Origin: Streptomyces sp. NBC_01314
GTDB taxonomy: Bacteria; Actinomycetota; Actinomycetes; Streptomycetales; Streptomycetaceae
Length of the DNA stretch: 64,000 nucleotides
Assembly: GCF_041435215.1 (NCBI RefSeq)
Contig: NZ_CP108394.1
Span: 6,758,001-6,822,000 of the forward strand
Direction of reading: 5' to 3'
Translations under genes and position numbers: made by a program
Shown here: positions 53,033 to 63,526 of the stretch, in pieces
Position numbering within the stretch: the stretch's first letter is position 1
Layout: each line of letters begins with the position of its first letter
The notes under the pieces: model-generated
What the model was told of the DNA's origin: nothing
The model's database searches: none
What the model saw: only the letters and a program-made list of their open reading frames with translations

Positions 53033-54301
53033 GTGCGTCGCCGTCTCATCCAGTCCACCCTCGCCGTCGTCCTCGTCGTCATCGCCGTCTTCGGCGTCTC
53101 CCTCGTCATCGTCGAGACCCGCACGATCAGCAACAGCGCCCAGGAACGTGTGGAGTCCGAGGCGGTCCAGCTGACGAGCATCGTGGACAGCCGCATCATC
53201 GGCGACGAGCGGATCACCGCGGAGGTCCTCAGGGACCAGGTCGGCGACGAGCGCTACGCCCGTATCGAGATCCCCGGCCAGACCGCGATCGAGATCGGTG
53301 ACAAGCCCGTCGGCGATGTCATCCGTCACAAGGCCAAGGGCGAGAAGGACGAGGTCGTCACGGTCGAGGAGTCCCGCTCGGCGGTGAGCCGCGAGGTCGG
53401 CCGCACGCTGCTGATCATCGCGGCCGTCGCCCTGCTCGCGGTCATCGCCGCCGTCCTCCTCGCCGTACGCCAGGCCAACCGCCTCGCCTCCCCCCTCACC
53501 GACCTCGCCGAGACCGCCGAGCGGCTCGGCTCCGGCGACCCGCGCCCGCGCCACAAGAGGTACGGAGTCCCGGAGCTGGACCGCGTCGCGGACGTGCTGG
53601 ACGCCTCCGCCGAGCGCATCGGCCGCATGCTGACCGCCGAGCGGCGCCTCGCCGCGGACGCGTCCCACCAGCTGCGTACGCCGCTGACCGCGCTGTCCAT
53701 GCGGCTGGAGGAGATCACCCTCACCGACGACCTCGCCACGGTGAAGGAGGAGGCGCACATCGCGCTCACCCAGGTCGAGCGCCTCACGGACGTCGTGGAA
53801 CGACTCCTCACCAACTCCCGCGACCCCCGCAACGGCTCCGCCGTCTCCTTCGAGCTCGACGAGGTCATCAAGCAGCAGCTGGAGGAGTGGCGGCCGGCCT
53901 ACCGAGGCGAGGGCCGGGCCGTCGTCAGCTCGGGCAAGCGCCATCTCCAGGCCGTGGGCACGCCGGGCGCGGTCGCGCAGGTGCTGGCCGCGCTGATCGA
54001 GAACTCGCTCATGCACGGCGGCGGCACGGTGGCGTTGCGCACGCGCGTCACCGGGAACCAGGCGGTGATCGAGGTCACCGACGAGGGGCCGGGCGTCCCC
54101 GCCGACCTCGGGGCGCGGATCTTCGAGCGGGCGATCAGCGGGCGCAACTCCACGGGCATCGGGCTGGCCGTGGCGCGCGACCTCGCGGAGGCCGACGGGG
54201 GGCGCCTGGAGATGCTCCAGGCGCAGCCGCCGGTCTTCGGGCTGTTCCTGTCCCGCACGCCCGTACGGACGCCGTCCGGCGATGACCGGCCTGTTCGGTA
54301 G
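53033..54301 (+). CDS. Membrane sensor histidine kinase
   Basis: A 422-residue kinase. Membrane helices ~7-28 and ~124-146 bracket a short ~95-residue extracytoplasmic sensor, then a HAMP linker (ANRLASPLTDLAETAERLGSG), the dimerisation histidine H212 in DASHQLRTPLTAL, and the ATPase domain with ENSLMHGGG, DEGPGVP and STGIGLAVARDLAEADGG. GTG at 53033 is preceded by GGAGGG. It should phosphorylate the response regulator upstream; the signal is unknown. Confidence 0.93.
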   Translation: MRRRLIQSTLAVVLVVIAVFGVSLVIVETRTISNSAQERVESEAVQLTSIVDSRIIGDERITAEVLRDQVGDERYARIEIPGQTAIEIGDKPVGDVIRHKAKGEKDEVVTVEESRSAVSREVGRTLLIIAAVALLAVIAAVLLAVRQANRLASPLTDLAETAERLGSGDPRPRHKRYGVPELDRVADVLDASAERIGRMLTAERRLAADASHQLRTPLTALSMRLEEITLTDDLATVKEEAHIALTQVERLTDVVERLLTNSRDPRNGSAVSFELDEVIKQQLEEWRPAYRGEGRAVVSSGKRHLQAVGTPGAVAQVLAALIENSLMHGGGTVALRTRVTGNQAVIEVTDEGPGVPADLGARIFERAISGRNSTGIGLAVARDLAEADGGRLEMLQAQPPVFGLFLSRTPVRTPSGDDRPVR

Positions 54302-54371
54302 CTCGGCGGTTCGGCGGCTCGGGTACGGGTGGCGTTCGCGGGCGCGCCGTAGCTCCGGGGCGCAGGGCGGC

Positions 54372-54451
54372 GACTGCGGGTGGTTCGCGGTTGCTCGCGC
54401 CCACGCGGCGGAGCCGCACATTGATGCAGCCCCGCGCCCCTTGAGGGGCGC
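54372..54451. repeat. Intergenic hairpin-plus-tail element, copy 5, with terminator
   Basis: GCGACTGCGGGTGGTTCGCG at the left, then the hairpin GCGCCCC-TTGA-GGGGCGC (54434-54451), the same stem as at 2630 in inverse order. It lies between the convergent kinase and GtrA genes and should terminate both. A further CGCTGCCCCTCAGCGGCG follows to about 54468, running into the gtrA end. Confidence 0.65.
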
Positions 54452-54457
54452 TGCCCC

Positions 54458-55000
54458 TCAGCGGCGCTTGCCCGTCACCGCCGGCGGCTGGGCGGGCCCC
54501 GCTTCGAGGAACGATTCCGCGCTCGCCACCGCCTCGCGGGCCGGGAGGGCCCGGAACACCCACGTGCGGTACGACCAGAACCGGAAGAGCGTCGCGATGC
54601 CGATGCCGAGGAACTTGAAGATGTTGGACTGCAGAGGGCTGTCCCAGTCGAAGCCGTACGTGGCCACGTAGAGGACGCCGTTCTCGATCACCAGTCCGAC
54701 GGCGCTGAACAGCAGGAAGAGCGACAGCTCCTTCGTACGGCCGCTCTTGTCACGGTCCCGGTACGTGAAGTAGCGGAAGCCGACGTAGTTGAACGCGATG
54801 GCGACGACCGTGGCTATGACGCTGGCCCGGACGACCTGCAGGTCGGTGGTGTGCCGCACGAGGTTGAACACCGCGAGGTTCACCAACAGCCCCACACCGC
54901 CCACCGCGCCGAACTTGGCGACCTCCCGTACGAGCAGGTCGATCCGGCGGCGCAGGGCGCCGTGGGGCTTCGTATCAGGCCCCGAGGTGGTACTTCTCAT
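54458..55000 (-). CDS. GtrA-like membrane protein
   Basis: A 180-residue protein with four membrane helices (about 33-53, 63-83, 98-117, 128-148) and the GtrA/PF04138 pattern FGAVGGVGLLVNLAVFNLV and FNYVGFRYFTYRDR. GtrA proteins help move polyprenyl-linked sugars across the membrane. ATG at 54998-55000, weak GGGGG upstream. It is divergent from purK across 262 bases. Confidence 0.88.
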   Translation of the reverse strand: MRSTTSGPDTKPHGALRRRIDLLVREVAKFGAVGGVGLLVNLAVFNLVRHTTDLQVVRASVIATVVAIAFNYVGFRYFTYRDRDKSGRTKELSLFLLFSAVGLVIENGVLYVATYGFDWDSPLQSNIFKFLGIGIATLFRFWSYRTWVFRALPAREAVASAESFLEAGPAQPPAVTGKRR

Positions 55001-55250
55001 GGTGTGCGGCCCCCGTCGCTCGGTCCGGTCGGTGTCGTGCCGGTGGTCAGCCGGTTGCTGCCCCGTCCGAAATGATCTGTAATGAGTTGATCTTCGGTCG
55101 AAATTCCCTGGTTCAGCCATGCTAACCAGCGCCCCTTGGCAATGCCTGTGCGGAAGCTCACAGCAGGGACACGGGGGAGGTCCTGGGGCGGTCCGGTGGG
55201 GAAAAGGGCGGGGAAATCGGGCACCCGGGAGTGGCCGATTCCATGGCCGA

Positions 55251-55265
55251 TACCCTGGGGGCGTG
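55251..55265 (+). promoter_or_regulatory. -10 box giving a leaderless purK transcript
   Basis: TACCCT at 55251-55256 ends six bases before the purK GTG at 55263. The geometry equals that of the marR start at 11097. Just upstream TGGCCGATTCC and TGGCCGATACC are near-identical direct repeats (about 55232-55255). Confidence 0.4.
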
Positions 55266-56414
55266 ACGTTCCCGGTAGTCGGCATGGTCGGCGGGGGCCA
55301 GCTCGCTCGTATGACACACGAGGCGGGCATCCCGCTCGGCATCAGGTTCAAGCTCCTCAGTGACACCCCTCAGGATTCCGCGGCGCAGGTCGTCGGCGAT
55401 GTCGTCATCGGCGACTACCGCGACCTCGACACGCTGCGTGCGTTCGCGCAGGGCTGCGACGTGATCACCTTCGATCACGAACACGTACCCACCGAGCACC
55501 TACGGGCCCTGGAGGCGGACGGCATCCCCGTGCGCCCGGGGCCGGACGCGCTCCAGCACGCCCAGGACAAGGGTGTGATGCGCGCGAGGCTCGACGCGAT
55601 CGGTGTGCCCTGTCCACGGCACCGCATCGTCGTGGACCCCGACGACGTGGCCGCTTTCGCCGCCGAGGGCGAGGGGTTTCCGGTCATCCTCAAGACGGTC
55701 CGCGGCGGCTACGACGGCAAGGGCGTGTGGGTCGTCCGGTCGGTCGAGGACGCCGCCGAGCCCTTCCGCGCCGGTGTCCCGGTCCTCGCGGAGGAGAAGG
55801 TCGACTTCGTACGGGAGCTGGCCGCCAACGTCGTGCGGTCGCCGCACGGCCAGGCCGTCGCGTACCCGGTCGTGGAGTCGCGGCAGGTGAACGGCGTCTG
55901 CGACACCGTCATCGCGCCCGCCCCCGACCTCGACGCGGCCCTCGCCCTCAAGGCCGAGGAACTGGCCCTCACCATCGCCAAGGAACTGGACGTGACCGGC
56001 CACCTGGCCGTCGAGCTCTTCCAGACCCTCAATGACGACGGGTCTTCTGGTGTCCTCGTCAACGAGCTGGCGATGCGCCCCCACAACTCCGGCCACTGGA
56101 GCCAGGACGGCGCGATCACCTCGCAGTTCGCCAACCACGTACGGGCCGTCCTCGACCTGCCGCTGGGCGACCCGCGCCCGCGCGCCAGGTGGACCGTCAT
56201 GGTCAACGTCCTCGGCGGCGACTACCCCGACATGTACTCCGCGTACCTGCACTGCATGGCCCGCGACCCGCAGCTCAAGATCCACATGTACGGCAAGGAC
56301 GTCAAGCCCGGCCGTAAGGTCGGTCACGTCAACACCTACGGCGACGACCTCGACGACGTGCTGGAGCGCGCCCGTCACGCCGCCGGTTACCTGAGAGGCA
56401 CGATCACCGAATGA
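55263..56414 (+). CDS. purK: N5-carboxyaminoimidazole ribonucleotide synthetase
   Basis: A 383-residue ATP-grasp enzyme that carboxylates AIR with bicarbonate and ATP in purine synthesis. Motifs: [12 protein letters not shown] at the N terminus, [22 protein letters not shown] (ATP loop) and [17 protein letters not shown] at 55263 opens right at the conserved start; a TACCCT box directly upstream suggests a leaderless message. The stop overlaps purE (ATGA). Confidence 0.96.
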
Positions 56415-56935
56415 GCCCCGTCGTAGGCATTGTCATGGGGTCGGACTCCGACTGGCCCGTCATGGAGGCCGCCGCGCAGGCACTCGACGAGTTCGAGATC
56501 GCGTACGAGGTCGACGTCGTCTCCGCGCACCGGATGCCGCGCGAGATGATCGCGTACGGCGAGGAGGCCGCGGGCCGGGGTCTCAAGGTGATCATCGCGG
56601 GCGCGGGCGGCGCCGCCCATCTGCCCGGCATGCTCGCGTCCGTGACCCCGCTGCCGGTCATCGGCGTGCCCGTGCCGCTGAAGTACCTCGACGGGATGGA
56701 CTCCCTGCTGTCGATCGTGCAGATGCCGGCCGGTGTGCCCGTCGCGACGGTCTCCGTCGCCGGGGCCCGCAACGCCGGTCTGCTGGCCGCGCGCATCCTG
56801 GCCACGCAGGACGAGGAACTCCTCGGCCGTATGCGGGAGTTCCAGCAGGAGCTGAACGACCAGGCCACCGAGAAGGGCAAGCGCCTGCGCACCAAGGTCG
56901 AGGGAGCCGGCAACGGCTTCGGCTTCGGGAAGTAG
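56411..56935 (+). CDS. purE: N5-carboxyaminoimidazole ribonucleotide mutase
   Basis: A 174-residue class I PurE that converts N5-CAIR to CAIR. Seen are [14 protein letters not shown] (phosphate/substrate loop), [10 protein letters not shown] with the catalytic histidine, and [11 protein letters not shown]. Its ATG overlaps the purK stop, the standard purK-purE pairing. It is followed 10 bases later by a dipeptidase gene in the same direction. Confidence 0.96.
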
Positions 56936-56945
56936 ACGCGACGCG

Positions 56946-58169
56946 ATGACGGGGATCACGGGGGACACGGGGGACATGGGTATGGCATCGCTGGAGACGG
57001 CCCGGGAACTGCTGCGGGAGTTCCCGGTCGCGGACGGGCACAACGACCTGCCCTGGGCACTGCGCGAGCAGGTCCGCTACGACCTCGACGCGCGGGACAT
57101 CGCCACCGACCAGAGCGCCTTTCTCCACACCGACCTGGCGCGGCTGCGCGCGGGCGGAGTCGGGGCGCAGTTCTGGTCGGTGTACGTCCCCTCGCACGCC
57201 GAGGCACTGCCGGGGGCCGTCCCCGCGACCCTCGAACAGATCGACTGCGTACGGCAGTTGATCGACCGTTACCCCGCCGAGCTGCGGGCCGCGCTGACCG
57301 CCGCCGACATGGAGGCGGCCCGCGCCGAGGGCCGTGTCGCCTCCCTGATGGGGGCCGAGGGCGGCCACTCCATCGACAACAGCCTCGCCACCCTGCGGGC
57401 GCTGTACGCGCTCGGCGTCCGCTACATGACGCTCACCCACAACGACAACATCGCCTGGGCGGACTCCGCGACGGACAAGGCGGCGGCCGGAGGTCTGTCG
57501 GCCTTCGGCCGGGCGGTCGTGCGGGAGATGAACCGCGAGGGCATGCTCGTCGACCTCTCGCACGTGGCGGCGACGACGATGCGCGACGCGCTCGACACGT
57601 CGACGGCCCCGGTGATCTTCTCCCACTCGTCGTCGCGGGCCGTCTGCGACCACCCTCGCAACATCCCGGACGACGTCCTGGAGCGGCTCCCGGCCAACGG
57701 GGGAGTGGCGATGGTGACGTTCGTGCCGAAGTTCGTGCTCCAGGCGGCCGTGGACTGGACGGCCGCCGCCGACGAGAACATGCGGGCCCACGGCCTGCAC
57801 CACCTCGACACCACCCCCGAGGGGATGACGGTCCACCGCGCCTTCGAGGAGCGCAGCCCCCGTCCGGTCGCCACGGTGTCCACGGTCGCGGACCACCTCG
57901 ACCACATGCGCGAGGTCGCCGGCATCGACCACCTCGGCATCGGCGGCGACTACGACGGCACGGCCTTCACCCCGGACGGTCTGGGTGACGTCTCCTGCTA
58001 CCCGAACCTGATCGCCGAGCTCCTCGACCGTGGCTGGTCCCGGCCCGACCTCGCCAAGCTGACCTGGCGGAACGCGGTCCGGGTGCTCGGCGCGGCGGAG
58101 GACGTCGCCCGGGACCTCCGGGCCCGTACGGGCCCGTCCAACGCCAGGCTGGAGCAGCTGGACGGGTGA
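56946..58169 (+). CDS. M19 (renal dipeptidase family) metallodipeptidase
   Basis: A 407-residue binuclear zinc dipeptidase. All ligands are visible: H32 and D34 in DGHNDLPW, bridging E138 in GAEGGHS, H206 in VDLSHVA, H227 in IFSHSSS, and the catalytic D335 in GIGGDYDG. It hydrolyses dipeptides, including L-D types, in the cytoplasm (no signal peptide). The start is uncertain: ATG 56946 lacks a binding site, ATG 56976 or 56982 inside a GGGGGAC-rich repeat are alternatives and would drop 10-12 residues. A degenerate paralogue follows after 156 bases. Confidence 0.92.
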
Positions 58170-58325
58170 CACGGGCCGCTGCCGGACGCCCCCGGGCATC
58201 ACCCGGGTGGCGTACGGCGGCTCCCCCGGCCGTACAACCCGAACGCCCCACCCACCAGGAAGGTGGGCGGCCCCCGTGCCACGGTGACGAGTACTGCGAT
58301 CACCCAACGGCTACGGAGGTTTGCC

Positions 58326-59546
58326 ATGGCAGATCTGCAGGACGAACTGCAAGCCGCCGGGGAGGCCGGCGAACTCGACACGCCTCCCCCCACCACCCGC
58401 ACCCGGCCCGAACCGAAACGCGGCCACCAGCCCCCGGTGGCGGAGCCGATAGCCGCCGACGCCCACGCCCACGCCGACACAGCGAACACCGCCGACGCCT
58501 CCGGGGCGGTCGCGACGGCGGCCGGGACCGCTGAGCCCTCTTCGGAGTTGGCGGAGGCGCATGCCTTCCTTGAGGCGCACCCCGTCGCCGACGGCTACAG
58601 CGGGCTGCCCTGGGTGCTGCGTCAGCTGCCCCGGTACGACCTGGAGCTGGGCGAGGGCGGGATGGACACCGATGTGCCGCGGATGCGCAAGGGTCACATC
58701 GGCGCGCTGTTCTGGTCGCTGCACCTCCCGGAGGGCCCGGCGGGCGAGCGGGCCGTCGACGCCACCCTGGAGCAGCTGGACCTGGTCCGGACGGCCGTCC
58801 ACGCCCACCCCGAGGGCCTGCGGCTCGTGCACAGCGCGGGAGAGACCACCGACGCCCGCAACTGCGGCCGCGTCGCCGTGCTGCTCGGCCCCGCCGGAGC
58901 CCCGGCGATCGGCGACTCCCTCGGCATCCTGCGCGCCCTGCACGCGCTCGGCCTGAAGGCCCTCACCCTCGCCGGCGCGTCCTGGGCGGGCGAGTCCGGG
59001 CTGAGCAGGTTCGGCGAGGAGGTGGTCCGCGAGATGAACCGCATCGGCGTCCTCGCCGACCTCTCCGGCGCCTCCGAGCCGACCGTCCGCCGGGCGCTCG
59101 CCCTCTCCCGCGCCCCGGTCGTGTGCACCCGCTCGGCGGCCGGCGCCCTACGGTCCCACCCCGCCAACCTCCCCGACGACCTCCTCGCCGCGCTGGGCGA
59201 GGCCCGGGGCCTGTGCATGGTGCCGCTCACCGCCGAGCAGACCGGCCCGTCCGTCCGCGACGTCGCCGACCACCTCGACCACGTCCGCGCGATCGCCGGC
59301 CCCGAGTGTGTCGGCCTCTCCGGCACCTACGACTCCGGTGCCGCCCACCCCCAGGACCTCAACGACGCCTCCTGTTACCCCCACCTCGTCGCCGAACTCA
59401 TGCACCGAGGCTGGTCCGAACCCGACCTCGCCCTCCTCACCTGGGGCAACGTCCAACGAGTCCTCCGCACGGCCGACTTCACGGCGCGGGCGGCGCGGGA
59501 CCGCCGAGAGGCCTCGACGGCGAGGATCGCGGAGCTGGACGGATAG
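58326..59546 (+). CDS. Catalytically dead M19 dipeptidase paralogue (pseudoenzyme)
   Basis: A 406-residue protein that keeps the M19 fold and aligns with the upstream dipeptidase throughout, after a ~75-residue Ala/Pro-rich N-terminal extension. Every metal or catalytic residue is replaced: HxD becomes Y91-S-G93, the bridging Glu becomes A190, the two histidines become G248 and R269, and the catalytic Asp becomes T334. Structural segments such as VREMNRIG, HPANLPDDLL and LMHRGWSEPDLALLTWGNV are well kept. ATG at 58326 has GGAGG six bases before it. The frame is intact, so this is a maintained gene rather than a decaying copy, probably regulatory or binding. Confidence 0.85.
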   Translation: MADLQDELQAAGEAGELDTPPPTTRTRPEPKRGHQPPVAEPIAADAHAHADTANTADASGAVATAAGTAEPSSELAEAHAFLEAHPVADGYSGLPWVLRQLPRYDLELGEGGMDTDVPRMRKGHIGALFWSLHLPEGPAGERAVDATLEQLDLVRTAVHAHPEGLRLVHSAGETTDARNCGRVAVLLGPAGAPAIGDSLGILRALHALGLKALTLAGASWAGESGLSRFGEEVVREMNRIGVLADLSGASEPTVRRALALSRAPVVCTRSAAGALRSHPANLPDDLLAALGEARGLCMVPLTAEQTGPSVRDVADHLDHVRAIAGPECVGLSGTYDSGAAHPQDLNDASCYPHLVAELMHRGWSEPDLALLTWGNVQRVLRTADFTARAARDRREASTARIAELDG

Positions 59547-59552
59547 CCCGCC

Positions 59553-59616
59553 GCCCCGTGCCCCTGTTTTCAGGGGCGCGGGGAACTGCGCGAGGAACCA
59601 CGACGGACCCGCAGCC
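59553..59616. repeat. Intergenic hairpin-plus-tail element, copy 6 (terminator)
   Basis: CCCCGTGCCCCTG (59553-59565), loop TTTT, CAGGGGCGCGGGG (59570-59582) with one G-T pair, followed by AACTGCGCGAGGAACCACGA and ACCCGCAGCC. It lies between convergent genes and can terminate both. Confidence 0.7.
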
Positions 59617-59653
59617 GTCGAACACACTCACGCCCCCACCCCCTACGGGGCAC

Positions 59654-60016
59654 TCAGCTCCGGCACAGACAGAACGGATGCCCCGCGGGATCCGCGTACA
59701 CCCGGAAACCGCGCTCACGATCCGCCGCGTCCAGCACCGTCGCCCCGAGCGCCAGCACCGCCTTCTCCGCGGCGTCCATGTCCGCCACGTTCAGATCGAG
59801 ATGGAACTGCTGCGACCGCTCCGCCGAGGGCCACTGAGGCGCCACGAACCCCGGCGCCTCCTGGAAGGCCAGCCGCGCGCCCCCGCCCGGTACCTCCAGG
59901 TCCACCCAGTCCCCCTCCCCGCTGACCTTCCCGCCGATCACCTCGGCGTAGAACCCGGCGAGCGCGGCCGGGTCGGGACAGTCCAGAACGACGACATCCA
60001 GCTTGGCGATGGCCAT
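59654..60016 (-). CDS. VOC (glyoxalase/bleomycin resistance fold) protein
   Basis: A 120-residue single-chain vicinal-oxygen-chelate protein: KLDVVVLDCPDPAALAGFY at the start, FHLDLNVADMDAAEKAVLALG in the second half and a C-terminal VYADPAGHPFCLC. ATG at 60016 with AGGAGAAGG upstream. The canonical glyoxalase I metal ligands cannot all be placed, so it may be a binding or resistance protein. Divergent from a CGNR zinc-finger gene across a cluster of GTTACC-type half sites. Confidence 0.85.
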   Translation of the reverse strand: MAIAKLDVVVLDCPDPAALAGFYAEVIGGKVSGEGDWVDLEVPGGGARLAFQEAPGFVAPQWPSAERSQQFHLDLNVADMDAAEKAVLALGATVLDAADRERGFRVYADPAGHPFCLCRS

Positions 60017-60052
60017 GGCCTTCTCCTTGCTCGTTCCTGCTCGCGTGACTTC

Positions 60053-60113
60053 GGTTACCTATAAAGCAGAGTAACCAGTAACGGTTACCTCATGCATCCC
60101 CATAAGAGGTAAC
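60053..60113. promoter_or_regulatory. Cluster of GTTACC half-sites between VOC and CGNR genes
   Basis: GTTACCT at 60054-60060, GTAACC at 60071-60076, GTTACCT at 60084-60090 and AGGTAAC at 60107-60113 form alternating inverted repeats; GTAACC-AGTAAC-GGTTAC (60071-60088) is a perfect palindrome with six-base arms. They fill the 106-base divergent gap and should control both genes. The CGNR protein itself is the obvious candidate binder. Confidence 0.6.
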
Positions 60114-60122
60114 GTCGGCGGC

Positions 60123-60629
60123 ATGAGTGAGAGAGCGTCCGCCCCCGGCGGCCTGGCCCTCGTCGAGAGCCTGGTGAACACGCTGGACCTGGAGACGGGT
60201 GCCGACGCCCTGGACACTCCGGAAGGCCGTGCCCGACTGGACCTGACGGCCGAGGAGGACATCACGGCCGTACGCGACCTGCGGGAGTCCCTCCGGGTGA
60301 CCCTGCTGGCCCACGCCGGCCACGCACCGCACCGCGCGGTGACCCCGCTCGGCGAGTTCCTGGCCGCCGCACCCCTGATCGTCGAGATCTCCGCCGGGGA
60401 CGGCTCCGCGACCCTGCGCCCCGCCGCCGACCCGGCCCCCCTCGTCTCCCGCGTGGCCGCGGCCGTCGCCGAGGCCCTCGCGGCGGGCACCTGGCAACGC
60501 CTCAAGGCCTGCGAGGCCCCCGACTGCCACTGGGCGTACTACGACCGCAGCCCGGCCGGACGGGGCCGCTGGTGCTCGATGCAGGTGTGCGGAGCCCGCG
60601 CGAAGATGCGCCGCTACCGAGCGAAGTAG
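60123..60629 (+). CDS. CGNR zinc-finger (ABATE domain) regulator
   Basis: A 168-residue protein: an N-terminal ABATE-like ligand domain (LALVESLVNTLDL) and a C-terminal CGNR-type zinc finger, C-x4-C-x15-C-x4-C as in ACEAPDCHWAYYDRSP then GRWCSMQVCGARAKMRRYR. These are putative transcription factors. ATG at 60123; weak binding site. Its stop faces a strong hairpin shared with the convergent UDP-glucose dehydrogenase gene. Its likely operator is the GTTACC cluster upstream. Confidence 0.85.
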   Translation: MSERASAPGGLALVESLVNTLDLETGADALDTPEGRARLDLTAEEDITAVRDLRESLRVTLLAHAGHAPHRAVTPLGEFLAAAPLIVEISAGDGSATLRPAADPAPLVSRVAAAVAEALAAGTWQRLKACEAPDCHWAYYDRSPAGRGRWCSMQVCGARAKMRRYRAK

Positions 60630-60674
60630 GCGCTTCGCTCCCGCCGACCGCCCGAACGGTGGAGAATGTGGGAA

Positions 60675-60715
60675 GACGCCGTTCCGGCCGACTGAGCCTC
60701 GGCCGGAACGGCGTC
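60675..60715. terminator. Bidirectional terminator hairpin
   Basis: A perfect 17-bp stem: 60675-60691 (GACGCCGTTCCGGCCGA) and 60699-60715, loop of seven bases. It lies between the convergent CGNR and UDP-glucose dehydrogenase genes. Confidence 0.75.
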
Positions 60716-60816
60716 ACCCGTTCGCCCCGCGTCCGGCTCGACGGGGACCTGGAGCCACGCCCCGGCCTTGGTTCTACGCGCCCTCCGCCGCCTCATGGCG
60801 CCGGCCGGTGTCGGCC

Positions 60817-62160
60817 CTACGCCGTCGGCCGTCCCATGGCCCGGTACGTCCACCCCGCCCGTCGCCACAGCTCGGGGTCCAGCGCGTTGCGGCCGTCCAG
60901 CACGAGCCGGGTCGAGGCGACCTCGCCCAGCGCCGCCGGGTCCAGCTCGCGGAACTCGCGCCACTCCGTCAGGTGCAGCACTATGTCGGCGTTCCGCACG
61001 GCCGCGATCGCGGAGTCGGCGTATCCGAGCGTCGGGAAGACCCGCCGGGCGTTGTCCATGCCCTTGGGGTCGTAGACGGTGACCTGGCCGCCCTGGAGGT
61101 GGATCTGCCCGGCCACGTTGAGGGCGGGGGAGTCGCGTACGTCGTCGGAGTCGGGCTTGAAGGTGGCGCCGAGCACGGCGACCCGCTTGCCCAGGAAGGA
61201 GCCGCCGCCCAGCGCCTGCCGGGCCAGCTCCACCATCTGACCGCGCTGGCGCATGTTGATGGAGTCGATCTCGCGCAGGAACGTCAGCGCCTGGTCGGCG
61301 CCCAGCTCGCCGGCGCGGGCCATGAACGCCCGGATGTCCTTCGGCAGACAGCCGCCACCGAACCCGATGCCGGCGCGCAGGAACTTCCTGCCGATCCGGT
61401 CGTCGTGCCCGATGGCCTCCGCCAGCTTGGCGACATCGCCCCCGGCGGCCTCGCACACCTCGGCCATGGCGTTGATGAAGGAGATCTTGGTGGCGAGGAA
61501 GGAGTTCGCGGCGGTCTTCACCAGCTCGGCGGTGGGGAAGTCGGTGACGACCAACGGGGAGCCCTCGGTCATCGGCGTCAGGTACACCTCGCGCAGCAGC
61601 TTCTCGGCCTTCTCGCTCCGTACGCCCACCACGATCCGGTCCGGGTGGAGCGTGTCGTTCACGGCGAAGCCCTCGCGCAGGAACTCCGGGTTCCAGGCCA
61701 GCTCGGCGTCCGCCCCTGCGGGCGCGTGCTCGGCGAGATAGGCGGCGAGCCGGTCGGCGGACCCGACCGGCACGGTCGATTTGCCGACGACGAGGGCGGG
61801 GCCCGTCAGATGCGGGGCGAGCGAGGCGAAGGCCGCGTCGACGTACGACATGTCGCAGGCGTACTCGCCGTGCCGCTGCGGGGTGTTCACACAGATGAAG
61901 TGGATGTCGCCGAAGGCCGCGACCTCGGCGTAGTCGGTCGTGAAGCGCAGCCGCCCGCTGGACCCCTCGATCCCGGCGACGTGCTTGCGCAGCAGCTCCT
62001 CCAGGCCCGGCTCGTACATCGGGACCTCGCCCCGCCGGAGCATGTCGATCTTCTCTTCGACGACGTCGAGCCCGAGCACCTCGAACCCCAGTTCGGCCAT
62101 GGCCGCGGCGTGTGTCGCGCCGAGATAGCCGGTGCCGATCACGGTGATCTTGAGGGCCAT
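60817..62160 (-). CDS. UDP-glucose 6-dehydrogenase
   Basis: A 447-residue enzyme that oxidises UDP-glucose to UDP-glucuronate with two NAD. Rossmann motif VIGTGYLGATHA at 8-19, VGKSTVPVGSA near 125, WNPEFLREG, catalytic-site lysine K225 in FLATKISF and nucleophile C271 in GFGGGCLPKD; NAD/UDP-binding C-terminal domain with GATFKPDSDDVRDSP. ATG at 62160 has AGGAGCACCC upstream. UDP-mannuronate-type dehydrogenases are related, but the C-terminal motif fits the glucose enzyme. Supplies uronic acid for wall or capsular polymers. Confidence 0.93.
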   Translation of the reverse strand: MALKITVIGTGYLGATHAAAMAELGFEVLGLDVVEEKIDMLRRGEVPMYEPGLEELLRKHVAGIEGSSGRLRFTTDYAEVAAFGDIHFICVNTPQRHGEYACDMSYVDAAFASLAPHLTGPALVVGKSTVPVGSADRLAAYLAEHAPAGADAELAWNPEFLREGFAVNDTLHPDRIVVGVRSEKAEKLLREVYLTPMTEGSPLVVTDFPTAELVKTAANSFLATKISFINAMAEVCEAAGGDVAKLAEAIGHDDRIGRKFLRAGIGFGGGCLPKDIRAFMARAGELGADQALTFLREIDSINMRQRGQMVELARQALGGGSFLGKRVAVLGATFKPDSDDVRDSPALNVAGQIHLQGGQVTVYDPKGMDNARRVFPTLGYADSAIAAVRNADIVLHLTEWREFRELDPAALGEVASTRLVLDGRNALDPELWRRAGWTYRAMGRPTA

Positions 62161-62330
62161 GGGTGCTCCTGATGTCCGGCCGTGGGGTGTCACACGCGCT
62201 CTGGTCCTGTGCGCTGCACGAGCATAGTCGGGGCGTGTCCGGGCCCTTCACCGGGCAGATTCCGACGGGGACGGGCGGCCTGTCGTCAAACTCACGTATC
62301 ACTCGCGTGGGCGGACCTCTAAAATTTGAG

Positions 62331-62347
62331 TTACTTAACGGTAGTTA
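62331..62347 (+). promoter_or_regulatory. AT-rich operator-like site before the acyl-CoA dehydrogenase
   Basis: TTACTTAACGGTAGTTA is an imperfect palindrome about 22 bases before the TTG start, inside a short AT-rich patch (TAAAATTTGAG just upstream). It resembles sites bound by TetR-type regulators of acyl-CoA metabolism. Confidence 0.35.
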
Positions 62348-62368
62348 GCGTCAGGAGCGTGAGAGACC

Positions 62369-63526
62369 TTGGCCGGATCGGCTGATTTCGACCTGTACCG
62401 CCCGTCCGAGGAGCACGACATGCTCCGTGACGCGATCCGTTCCCTCTCCGAGGCGAAGATCGCGCCCTTCGCCGCCGTCGTGGACGAGGAGGCCCGTTTC
62501 CCGCAGGAGGCGCTGGACGCGCTGGTCGCCAACGACCTGCACGCCGTGCACGTCCCCGAGGAGTACGGCGGCGCCGGCGCCGACGCGCTCGCCACGGTCA
62601 TCGTGATCGAGGAGGTGGCCCGCGCCTGCGTGTCGTCCTCCCTGATCCCGGCCGTCAACAAGCTCGGCTCGCTGCCCGTGATCCTCTCCGGCTCCGAGGA
62701 GCTGAAGAAGAAGTACCTGGGCCCGCTCGCCAAGGGCGACGCGATGTTCTCGTACTGCCTCTCCGAGCCGGACGCCGGCTCCGACGCGGCAGGCATGAAG
62801 ACCCGCGCGGTCCGCGACGGCGACCACTTCATCCTCAACGGCGTGAAGCGCTGGATCACCAACGCGGGCGTCTCCGACTACTACACGGTCATGGCCGTCA
62901 CGGACCCGGAGAAGCGCTCCAAGGGCATCTCCGCCTTCGTCGTCGAGAAGTCCGACGAGGGCGTCTCCTTCGGCGCCCCGGAGAAGAAGCTCGGCATCAA
63001 GGGCTCCCCGACCCGCGAGGTCTACCTCGACAACGTCCGCATCCCCGCCGACCGCATGATCGGCGAGGAGGGCACCGGCTTCGCCACGGCGATGGCGACC
63101 CTGGACCACACCCGTATCACCATCGCCGCCCAGGCCCTCGGCGTCGCCCAGGGCGCCCTCGACTACGCCAAGGGCTATGTCCAGGAGCGCAAGCAGTTCG
63201 GCAAGCCGATCGCCGACTTCCAGGGCATCCAGTTCATGCTCGCCGACATGGCCATGAAGATCGAGGCCGCCCGCGCGCTGACGTACCAGGCGGCGGCGAA
63301 GTCCGAGCGCGGCGACAAGGACCTCACCTTCCAGGGCGCCGCCGCCAAGTGCTTCGCCTCCGACGTCGCCATGGAGGTCACCACGGACGCCGTCCAGCTC
63401 CTCGGCGGCTACGGCTACACCCGCGACTACCCGGTCGAGCGCATGATGCGCGACGCGAAGATCACACAGATATACGAAGGCACGAACCAGGTCCAGCGCA
63501 TCGTCATGGCCCGCAACCTGCCGTAA
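62369..63526 (+). CDS. Acyl-CoA dehydrogenase
   Basis: A 385-residue flavoenzyme for the first step of fatty acyl or branched-chain acyl-CoA oxidation. Motifs: YCLSEPDAGSDAAGMKT and WITNAGVSDYYTV (flavin site), DKDLTFQGAAAKCFASD, QLLGGYGYTRDYPVERMMRD and the catalytic Glu E370 in QIYEGTNQ. The position of the catalytic Glu fits the short/medium/butyryl-CoA class. The only start giving the conserved DFDLYRPSEEHDML N terminus is TTG at 62369 with GAGAG upstream, an uncommon start. A hairpin terminator follows. Confidence 0.94.
   Translation: MAGSADFDLYRPSEEHDMLRDAIRSLSEAKIAPFAAVVDEEARFPQEALDALVANDLHAVHVPEEYGGAGADALATVIVIEEVARACVSSSLIPAVNKLGSLPVILSGSEELKKKYLGPLAKGDAMFSYCLSEPDAGSDAAGMKTRAVRDGDHFILNGVKRWITNAGVSDYYTVMAVTDPEKRSKGISAFVVEKSDEGVSFGAPEKKLGIKGSPTREVYLDNVRIPADRMIGEEGTGFATAMATLDHTRITIAAQALGVAQGALDYAKGYVQERKQFGKPIADFQGIQFMLADMAMKIEAARALTYQAAAKSERGDKDLTFQGAAAKCFASDVAMEVTTDAVQLLGGYGYTRDYPVERMMRDAKITQIYEGTNQVQRIVMARNLP

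Follow-up and report, generated by a model that had tools for sequence, protein, structure and literature searches.

What does a dipeptidase-like protein do after its metal site has gone? The question is raised by a 64,000 nt stretch of Streptomyces sp. NBC_01314 (NZ_CP108394.1, positions 6,758,001-6,822,000 of the forward strand; hereafter the window), in which the gene for an active M19 dipeptidase is followed on the same strand, 156 bp downstream, by an open reading frame for a second M19 protein, the dead copy, whose catalytic site has been dismantled. The second copy belongs to a real family of M19 pseudoenzymes that is conserved and specific to the genus: its members have lost the site, keep an intact predicted fold, form a single clade, evolve under purifying selection and share a conserved N-terminal tag and pocket. 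The best explanation overall, which we hold with a little less than even confidence, is that this genus-restricted M19 pseudoenzyme serves as a cytosolic, metal-free binding protein with a docking tag.

Loss of the catalytic site

The two genes and the start signal of the second are as follows.

56946..58169, + strand: active M19 dipeptidase, 407 amino acids, keeping H32, D34, E138, H165, H206, H227, R238 and D335
58326..59546, + strand: metal-free M19 pseudoenzyme, 406 amino acids, ATG at 58326 and stop codon at 59544-59546
58315..58319, + strand: ribosome binding site GGAGG, its upstream positions conserved

The initial annotation described an open frame of M19 type, and both points are borne out: the 406-residue frame opens at 58326 behind the GGAGG at 58315-58319, and its product scores 279.5 bits against the PF01244 profile (cut-off 26), compared with 393.4 bits for the active neighbour. 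These are two of three PF01244 matches in the genome, the third being weak (30.7 bits). The active protein is a close homologue of S. coelicolor Sco3058 (PDB 3ID7; E 4.2e-229). Aligned with this neighbour, the dead protein carries exactly the six replacements first reported for it (H32 to Y91, D34 to G93, E138 to A190, H206 to G248, H227 to R269 and D335 to T334), and three further losses accompany them: a gap at H165, the His of THND; Ala (A280) in place of R238, the Arg of HPRN; and a loop shortened by ~43 residues after the strand MVTF and ahead of VADHLDH. If the metal ligands of the M19 site are H, D, E, H and H, as we assume from renal dipeptidase, the binuclear ligand positions are filled by Y91, G93, A190, G248 and R269, while T334, a gap and A280 stand where we presume the catalytic Asp, the THND His and the substrate Arg to act. 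Relative to Sco3058 and the bacterial M19 dipeptidases (PF01244; PDB 3ID7, 3ITC, 3S2J) the dead twin therefore is without metal ligands, catalytic Asp, THND His, substrate Arg and the ~43 loop residues, and has gained a tag and a linker. Judged from its sequence it is an M19 homologue that does not belong among the M19 dipeptidases as enzymes.

The replaced states are not peculiar to this strain. In 121 rows (the dead protein and the best 120 of 1390 matches, the close end of the family) Y91 is found in 120, G93 in 121, A190 in 121, G248 in 120, R269 in 121 and T334 in 118, and recurrence in 118-121 of 121 rows at six positions excludes chance or sequencing error. Most named proteins among these best 120 matches carry the database name 'dipeptidase', which, on these residues, is wrong for the 120 listed clusters. 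A wider comparison set 147 second copies against 124 first copies, with duplicates of the window and a frame-split piece of locus L153 dropped. First copies retain all eight site residues wherever covered, whereas none of the second copies retains the site; the commonest pattern is YGA-GRAT (95/147), and loss of the Glu, of the THND His and of Asp335 is near-universal, as is replacement of H206, mostly by Gly.

Three basal second copies (L132, L137 and L219) have lost the ligands and retain more of the active sequence, so that an order of loss, ligands first and then the loop, could be derived from them. A search from L137 returned, among the best 120 of 7976 matches and besides the query, 14 dead proteins, 104 that keep the site and one altered dipeptidase 3 (DPEP3). 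This last, from Capricornis (P0138), reads HHEFYHLS at the eight sites, which are thus partly kept. Human DPEP3 (PDB 6VGO) is likewise an M19 protein reported to be without dipeptidase activity; passages of PMC8541375 describe DPEP3 as a mammalian protein with a glycosylphosphatidylinositol anchor. Judged from host and sequence, its site loss would be separate from that in Streptomyces.

Maintenance and distribution in Streptomyces

Is the dead copy kept, or is it a relic? Selection was measured on 105 locus pairs and the window, drawn from the 147 second copies, the remainder being without an active neighbour or the start motif. Over 624 close pairs the dead gene has a median ratio of nonsynonymous to synonymous substitution rates (dN/dS) of 0.26, compared with 0.15 for its active neighbour. 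Over 50 disjoint pairs the medians are 0.247 and 0.157, the pooled values 0.295 and 0.170 and the ranges 0.058-0.972 (with the outlier of 0.972 retained) and 0.061-0.307, respectively. The dead copy is maintained by purifying selection. Its domain frame is unbroken in 145/147 copies and broken in two (L136 and L153), a tally in which intact copies are favoured since best matches were fetched first; one further copy, L076, is cut by a contig end. Relaxed selection and truncation, named at the outset as grounds for doubting the dead-copy claim, are not the pattern found (dN/dS ~0.25, 2/147 frames broken), and the claim is unrefuted.

The search for the family covered 199 Streptomyces genomes, the window's included. 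By hand count a second copy is present in at least 94 (91 at E 2.6e-66 or better, together with G102, G004 and G041), and the active gene in 198 at E 1e-150, G030 being the sole genome without it at that threshold. At family level 61/249 genomes match at E 1e-57, in 3/17 genera, and the two matches outside Streptomyces are active-type by similarity (L216, purE-linked and at 66% to the active protein, and L217, at 52%); at class level 16/296 genomes match at 1e-58, all within 1/114 genera. From these counts the dead family is confined to Streptomyces at such sensitivity. A quick tree of 53 sequences places 33 second copies in one group with support of 100, a quick value to be taken cautiously in a tree with long branches.

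Presence was also mapped for 141 loci (103 with and 38 without a second copy) on a tree built from purE, purK and the active protein, where it needs 8 changes, as against 33.8 for shuffled labels (0/500 shuffles as low as 8); the sample is biased, most loci with the gene having been fetched for having it and the 38 without it hand-picked from the search of 199 genomes, and such counts do not distinguish gain from loss. The loci came from overlapping collections in which some species are counted twice (132 unique upstream sequences of 139). A less biased count comes from the 199 genomes: in 88 the active protein shares 81% or more identity with that of the window, and of these 67 have a second copy and 21 lack one. 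No remnant of the dead gene was found near the active gene in 36 newly fetched loci free of the second copy (tblastn, 1e-4). An old origin followed by repeated clean loss fits this pattern, and the binuclear metal site of an old dipeptidase duplicate would have gone before the known second copies diversified.

A functionless duplicate in slow decay is a very improbable alternative, against which the sustained purifying selection weighs, together with the 145/147 unbroken frames (allowing for the order of fetching) and the fixation of new residues and of the tag. What speaks for decay is that the dead gene evolves faster than its twin, is missing in 21/88 near relatives, changes presence 8 times on the tree and is broken in L136, L153 and L218, with partial or split second-copy matches in G081 and G274. 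L218 (G354:C1:582000-590500) lies outside the 147, and the stretch fetched for it contains no purK or purE.

Relation to the active gene

The window carries, in order, purK, purE (56411-56935), the active dipeptidase gene and the dead gene, where purK and purE are labels that we presume from the sequence. The initial annotation read the last two as a tandem pair and suggested a regulator or binding partner of the dipeptidase, or a peptide sensor, roles that are conjectural. Adjacency stands, for in 81 of the at least 94 genomes with a second copy the active gene lies within 4 kb upstream on the same strand (77 by placement search and G187, G010, G006 and G090 by loci L117, L119, L127 and L137; G085 is the one genome left unjudged). 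A strict two-gene unit does not stand, given intervening genes, split pairs and an upstream element of the dead gene's own. Among the 147 fetched second copies the active gene falls within the fetched stretch in 122, always upstream on the same strand, at gaps of 108 to 3125 bp (median 180 bp; 77 gaps no longer than 350 bp, 18 above that and up to 999 bp, and 27 of 1 kb or more). For the other 25 the fetched DNA upstream is shorter than 1.7 kb in 16 and 3.9 to 5 kb long in 9; genome searches for six of them located the active gene elsewhere.

This arrangement would suit a regulatory or stabilising subunit, the dead barrel pairing with the active dipeptidase, a possibility that we consider unlikely. 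M19 enzymes pair with themselves, as human renal dipeptidase does. The preference for a close upstream neighbour (81/94 genomes; median gap 180 bp, 77 of 122 at or below 350 bp) agrees with such pairing, yet 45/122 gaps exceed 350 bp and other genes lie between the pair in both loci inspected: in L015 a minus-strand gene (L015:3450-4355) that by eye looks like an NAD-dependent epimerase, and in L032 several genes (L032:1875-5000). The pair is split on one contig in 8/94 genomes, by ~2 Mb and on opposite strands in G127 (L090) and G108 (L098) and by 2.8 to 7.3 kb, again on opposite strands, in G093, G122, G162, G081, G002 and G021; in four more (G087, G032, G113 and G102) the genes are on different contigs, which may be assembly breaks. 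In distance trees of 93 loci the partial correlation of dead with active protein, beyond purK and purE, is 0.49, compared with 0.44 for dead with purK (0.43 and 0.29 in the 76 loci of the main clade), but this is a small excess, such as linkage by itself could produce. With the active gene in 198/199 genomes and the dead gene often absent, the dipeptidase does not require the dead copy everywhere. A model of active and dead proteins as a fused chain (14 alignment rows; predicted local distance difference test score, pLDDT, of 50.6; predicted template modelling score of 0.36) is poor in both halves and hence uninformative. A precedent for the subunit is the pseudo-dihydroorotase of Pseudomonas, an inactive amidohydrolase-type chain required for the activity of its aspartate transcarbamoylase partner, according to passages of PMC7053772; it belongs to another family with a different enzyme as partner, and the partner role of the dead twin is putative.

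The dead gene is preceded by an element of its own.

58236..58294, + strand: conserved element ahead of the dead gene, with CGAACG at 58240, conserved bases beside it and CGTG..ACGGTG 29 nt further on

CGAACG is followed after 29-30 nt by CGTG in 106/132 unique upstream sequences, among them 25 loci with more than 500 bp between active and dead genes. In 13 loci without an active gene nearby it is complete in 10, including those of G127 and G108, half present in L038 and absent from L114 and L116. The conserved element thus stays with the dead gene when the pair splits, a point that further disfavours the subunit, and the split pairs of G127 and G108 are natural test cases for independence. 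The element occurs once in the window, at 58240, and a stricter pattern has two matches in the genome, one of them upstream of the dead gene. A scan for sigma-70 promoters around the dead gene found no promoter-like site; the element is probably the dead gene's own promoter or a regulator site.

Beyond the 3' end of the dead gene (59556-59593) is a stem-like stretch with GGCGCGGGGAACTGCGCGA, present in five copies in the window (59556-59593, 2643, 37364, 49551 and 52863) at three or fewer mismatches, where 0.23 would be expected. It looks like a dispersed 3' repeat, and an Rfam scan of 54000-62500 found no RNA family.

The remodelled pocket and the N-terminal tag

The dead protein is divided as follows.

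58326..58346, + strand: N-terminal tag MADLQDE, residues 1-7, conserved in nearly all second copies
58380..58544, + strand: variable Pro/Ala/Asp-rich linker, residues 19-73, mostly predicted disordered
58545..59543, + strand: M19-fold barrel, residues 74-406, with a remodelled pocket
Remodelled pocket residues of the barrel: Y91, G93, A190, G248, R269, R276, C297, T334 and H341

The predicted structure is an M19 barrel. Across the main clade (110 sequences) the mean is 0.14 bits for the former ligand columns, 0.28 bits for the 32 columns surrounding them and 0.61 bits elsewhere, a pocket conservation matched by 20/5000 random block sets; at 30 sites the dead and active families are each fixed for a different residue. 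The conserved columns argue for use of the pocket. That use might be catalytic, in the form of metal-independent chemistry or of a new metal site built from H133, C297, H341, D336 and H278, although we think such a different enzyme quite improbable. Each of these residues occurs in 107-110 of the 110 main-clade sequences, three of them (H133, C297 and H341) not being shared with the active family; in 23 divergent copies, by contrast, H133 is Leu in 14, C297 is Ala in 11, H341 is Arg in 14 and D336 is Gly in 16, so no replacement metal site is common to the whole clade, and any such site would be private to the main clade. As a general feature the new site is rejected, H133, C297 and H341 not being kept in divergent members, and with no general supply of ligands from other positions the protein remains a dead copy as first described.

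The N-terminal extension was originally called Ala-rich. An extension is present, but the description is incomplete: residues 1-7 are conserved and the linker alone is variable, with a composition of 20% Pro, 15% Ala and 14% Asp, a pLDDT below 50 over residues 7-68, and an M19 domain that begins anywhere from residue 38 to 120 among second copies. Across 138 tabulated starts, preselected to begin with ATG and encode MAD or MAE, many having first been located by motif, Leu4 occurs in 138, Gln5 in 124, Asp6 in 126 and Glu or Asp at position 7 in 131; Ala2 and Asp or Glu at position 3 (138/138 each) are a consequence of the selection. Without motif selection an MA[DE] or MAG start is found in 145/147 copies (a script located 139 and inspection another six, among these the L153 start, which is out of frame with its own domain), and in the search from L137 an MADL or MADT start in 13 of 15 (the query and 14 dead proteins; P0125 and P0134 differ). 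No convincing instance of the tag was found in other proteins of the window's genome. A role as a family 2 encapsulin cargo signal is a conjecture that gene order does not support: such cargo genes usually adjoin the encapsulin gene, whereas the three PF19307 genes of this genome lie at G000:C1:145459, 3936615 and 9936208, the nearest ~2.8 Mb from the window.

Taken as a whole, function by binding appears the best reading of the dead protein. Several findings weigh against it. The dead gene exceeds its active twin in dN/dS in 39/50 pairs, and roughly half of the 199 genomes, as well as the 21/88 near relatives, lack it and so can dispense with it. Divergent clades carry other states at the replaced positions (e.g., CTV-GNGA and HTV-GHGT), which leaves no single shared new pocket chemistry. 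The active family shows a column contrast of its own (0.02 vs 0.33), and since buried columns at the barrel end may be conserved for packing, the pocket result is no proof of binding. Finally, tag conservation could in part reflect translation initiation, although there is variation at codons 2, 3, 4 and 7, either synonymous or between Asp and Glu.

Under the binding proposal the dead copy would have retained its barrel, with the pocket reshaped by newly fixed residues, and carries the private peptide MADLQDE on the flexible linker. The protein, probably cytosolic since no signal-like N-terminus is seen by eye, may act as a metal-free sensor or adaptor that accommodates a small ligand where the substrate once bound and uses the tag to dock on a partner protein, its gene being expressed from the upstream element as a putative promoter. 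A narrower and rather doubtful version makes it an intracellular receptor of Streptomyces, whose metal-free pocket would read a ligand that is either a small peptide or similar to an amino acid, perhaps one drawn from the dipeptidase's own substrates or products, and whose MADLQDE would relay the state to a partner; as the clades have different pockets, their ligands may differ.

Our searches of open-licence papers found none on this dead twin. The progression from active twin through basal dead copies to the main clade offers a natural series for the change from metalloenzyme to binding protein, and the conserved tag is a handle for finding a putative partner of the dead protein. The reshaped pocket and the short conserved front tag, present in many Streptomyces, suggest that the dead twin binds instead of cutting.
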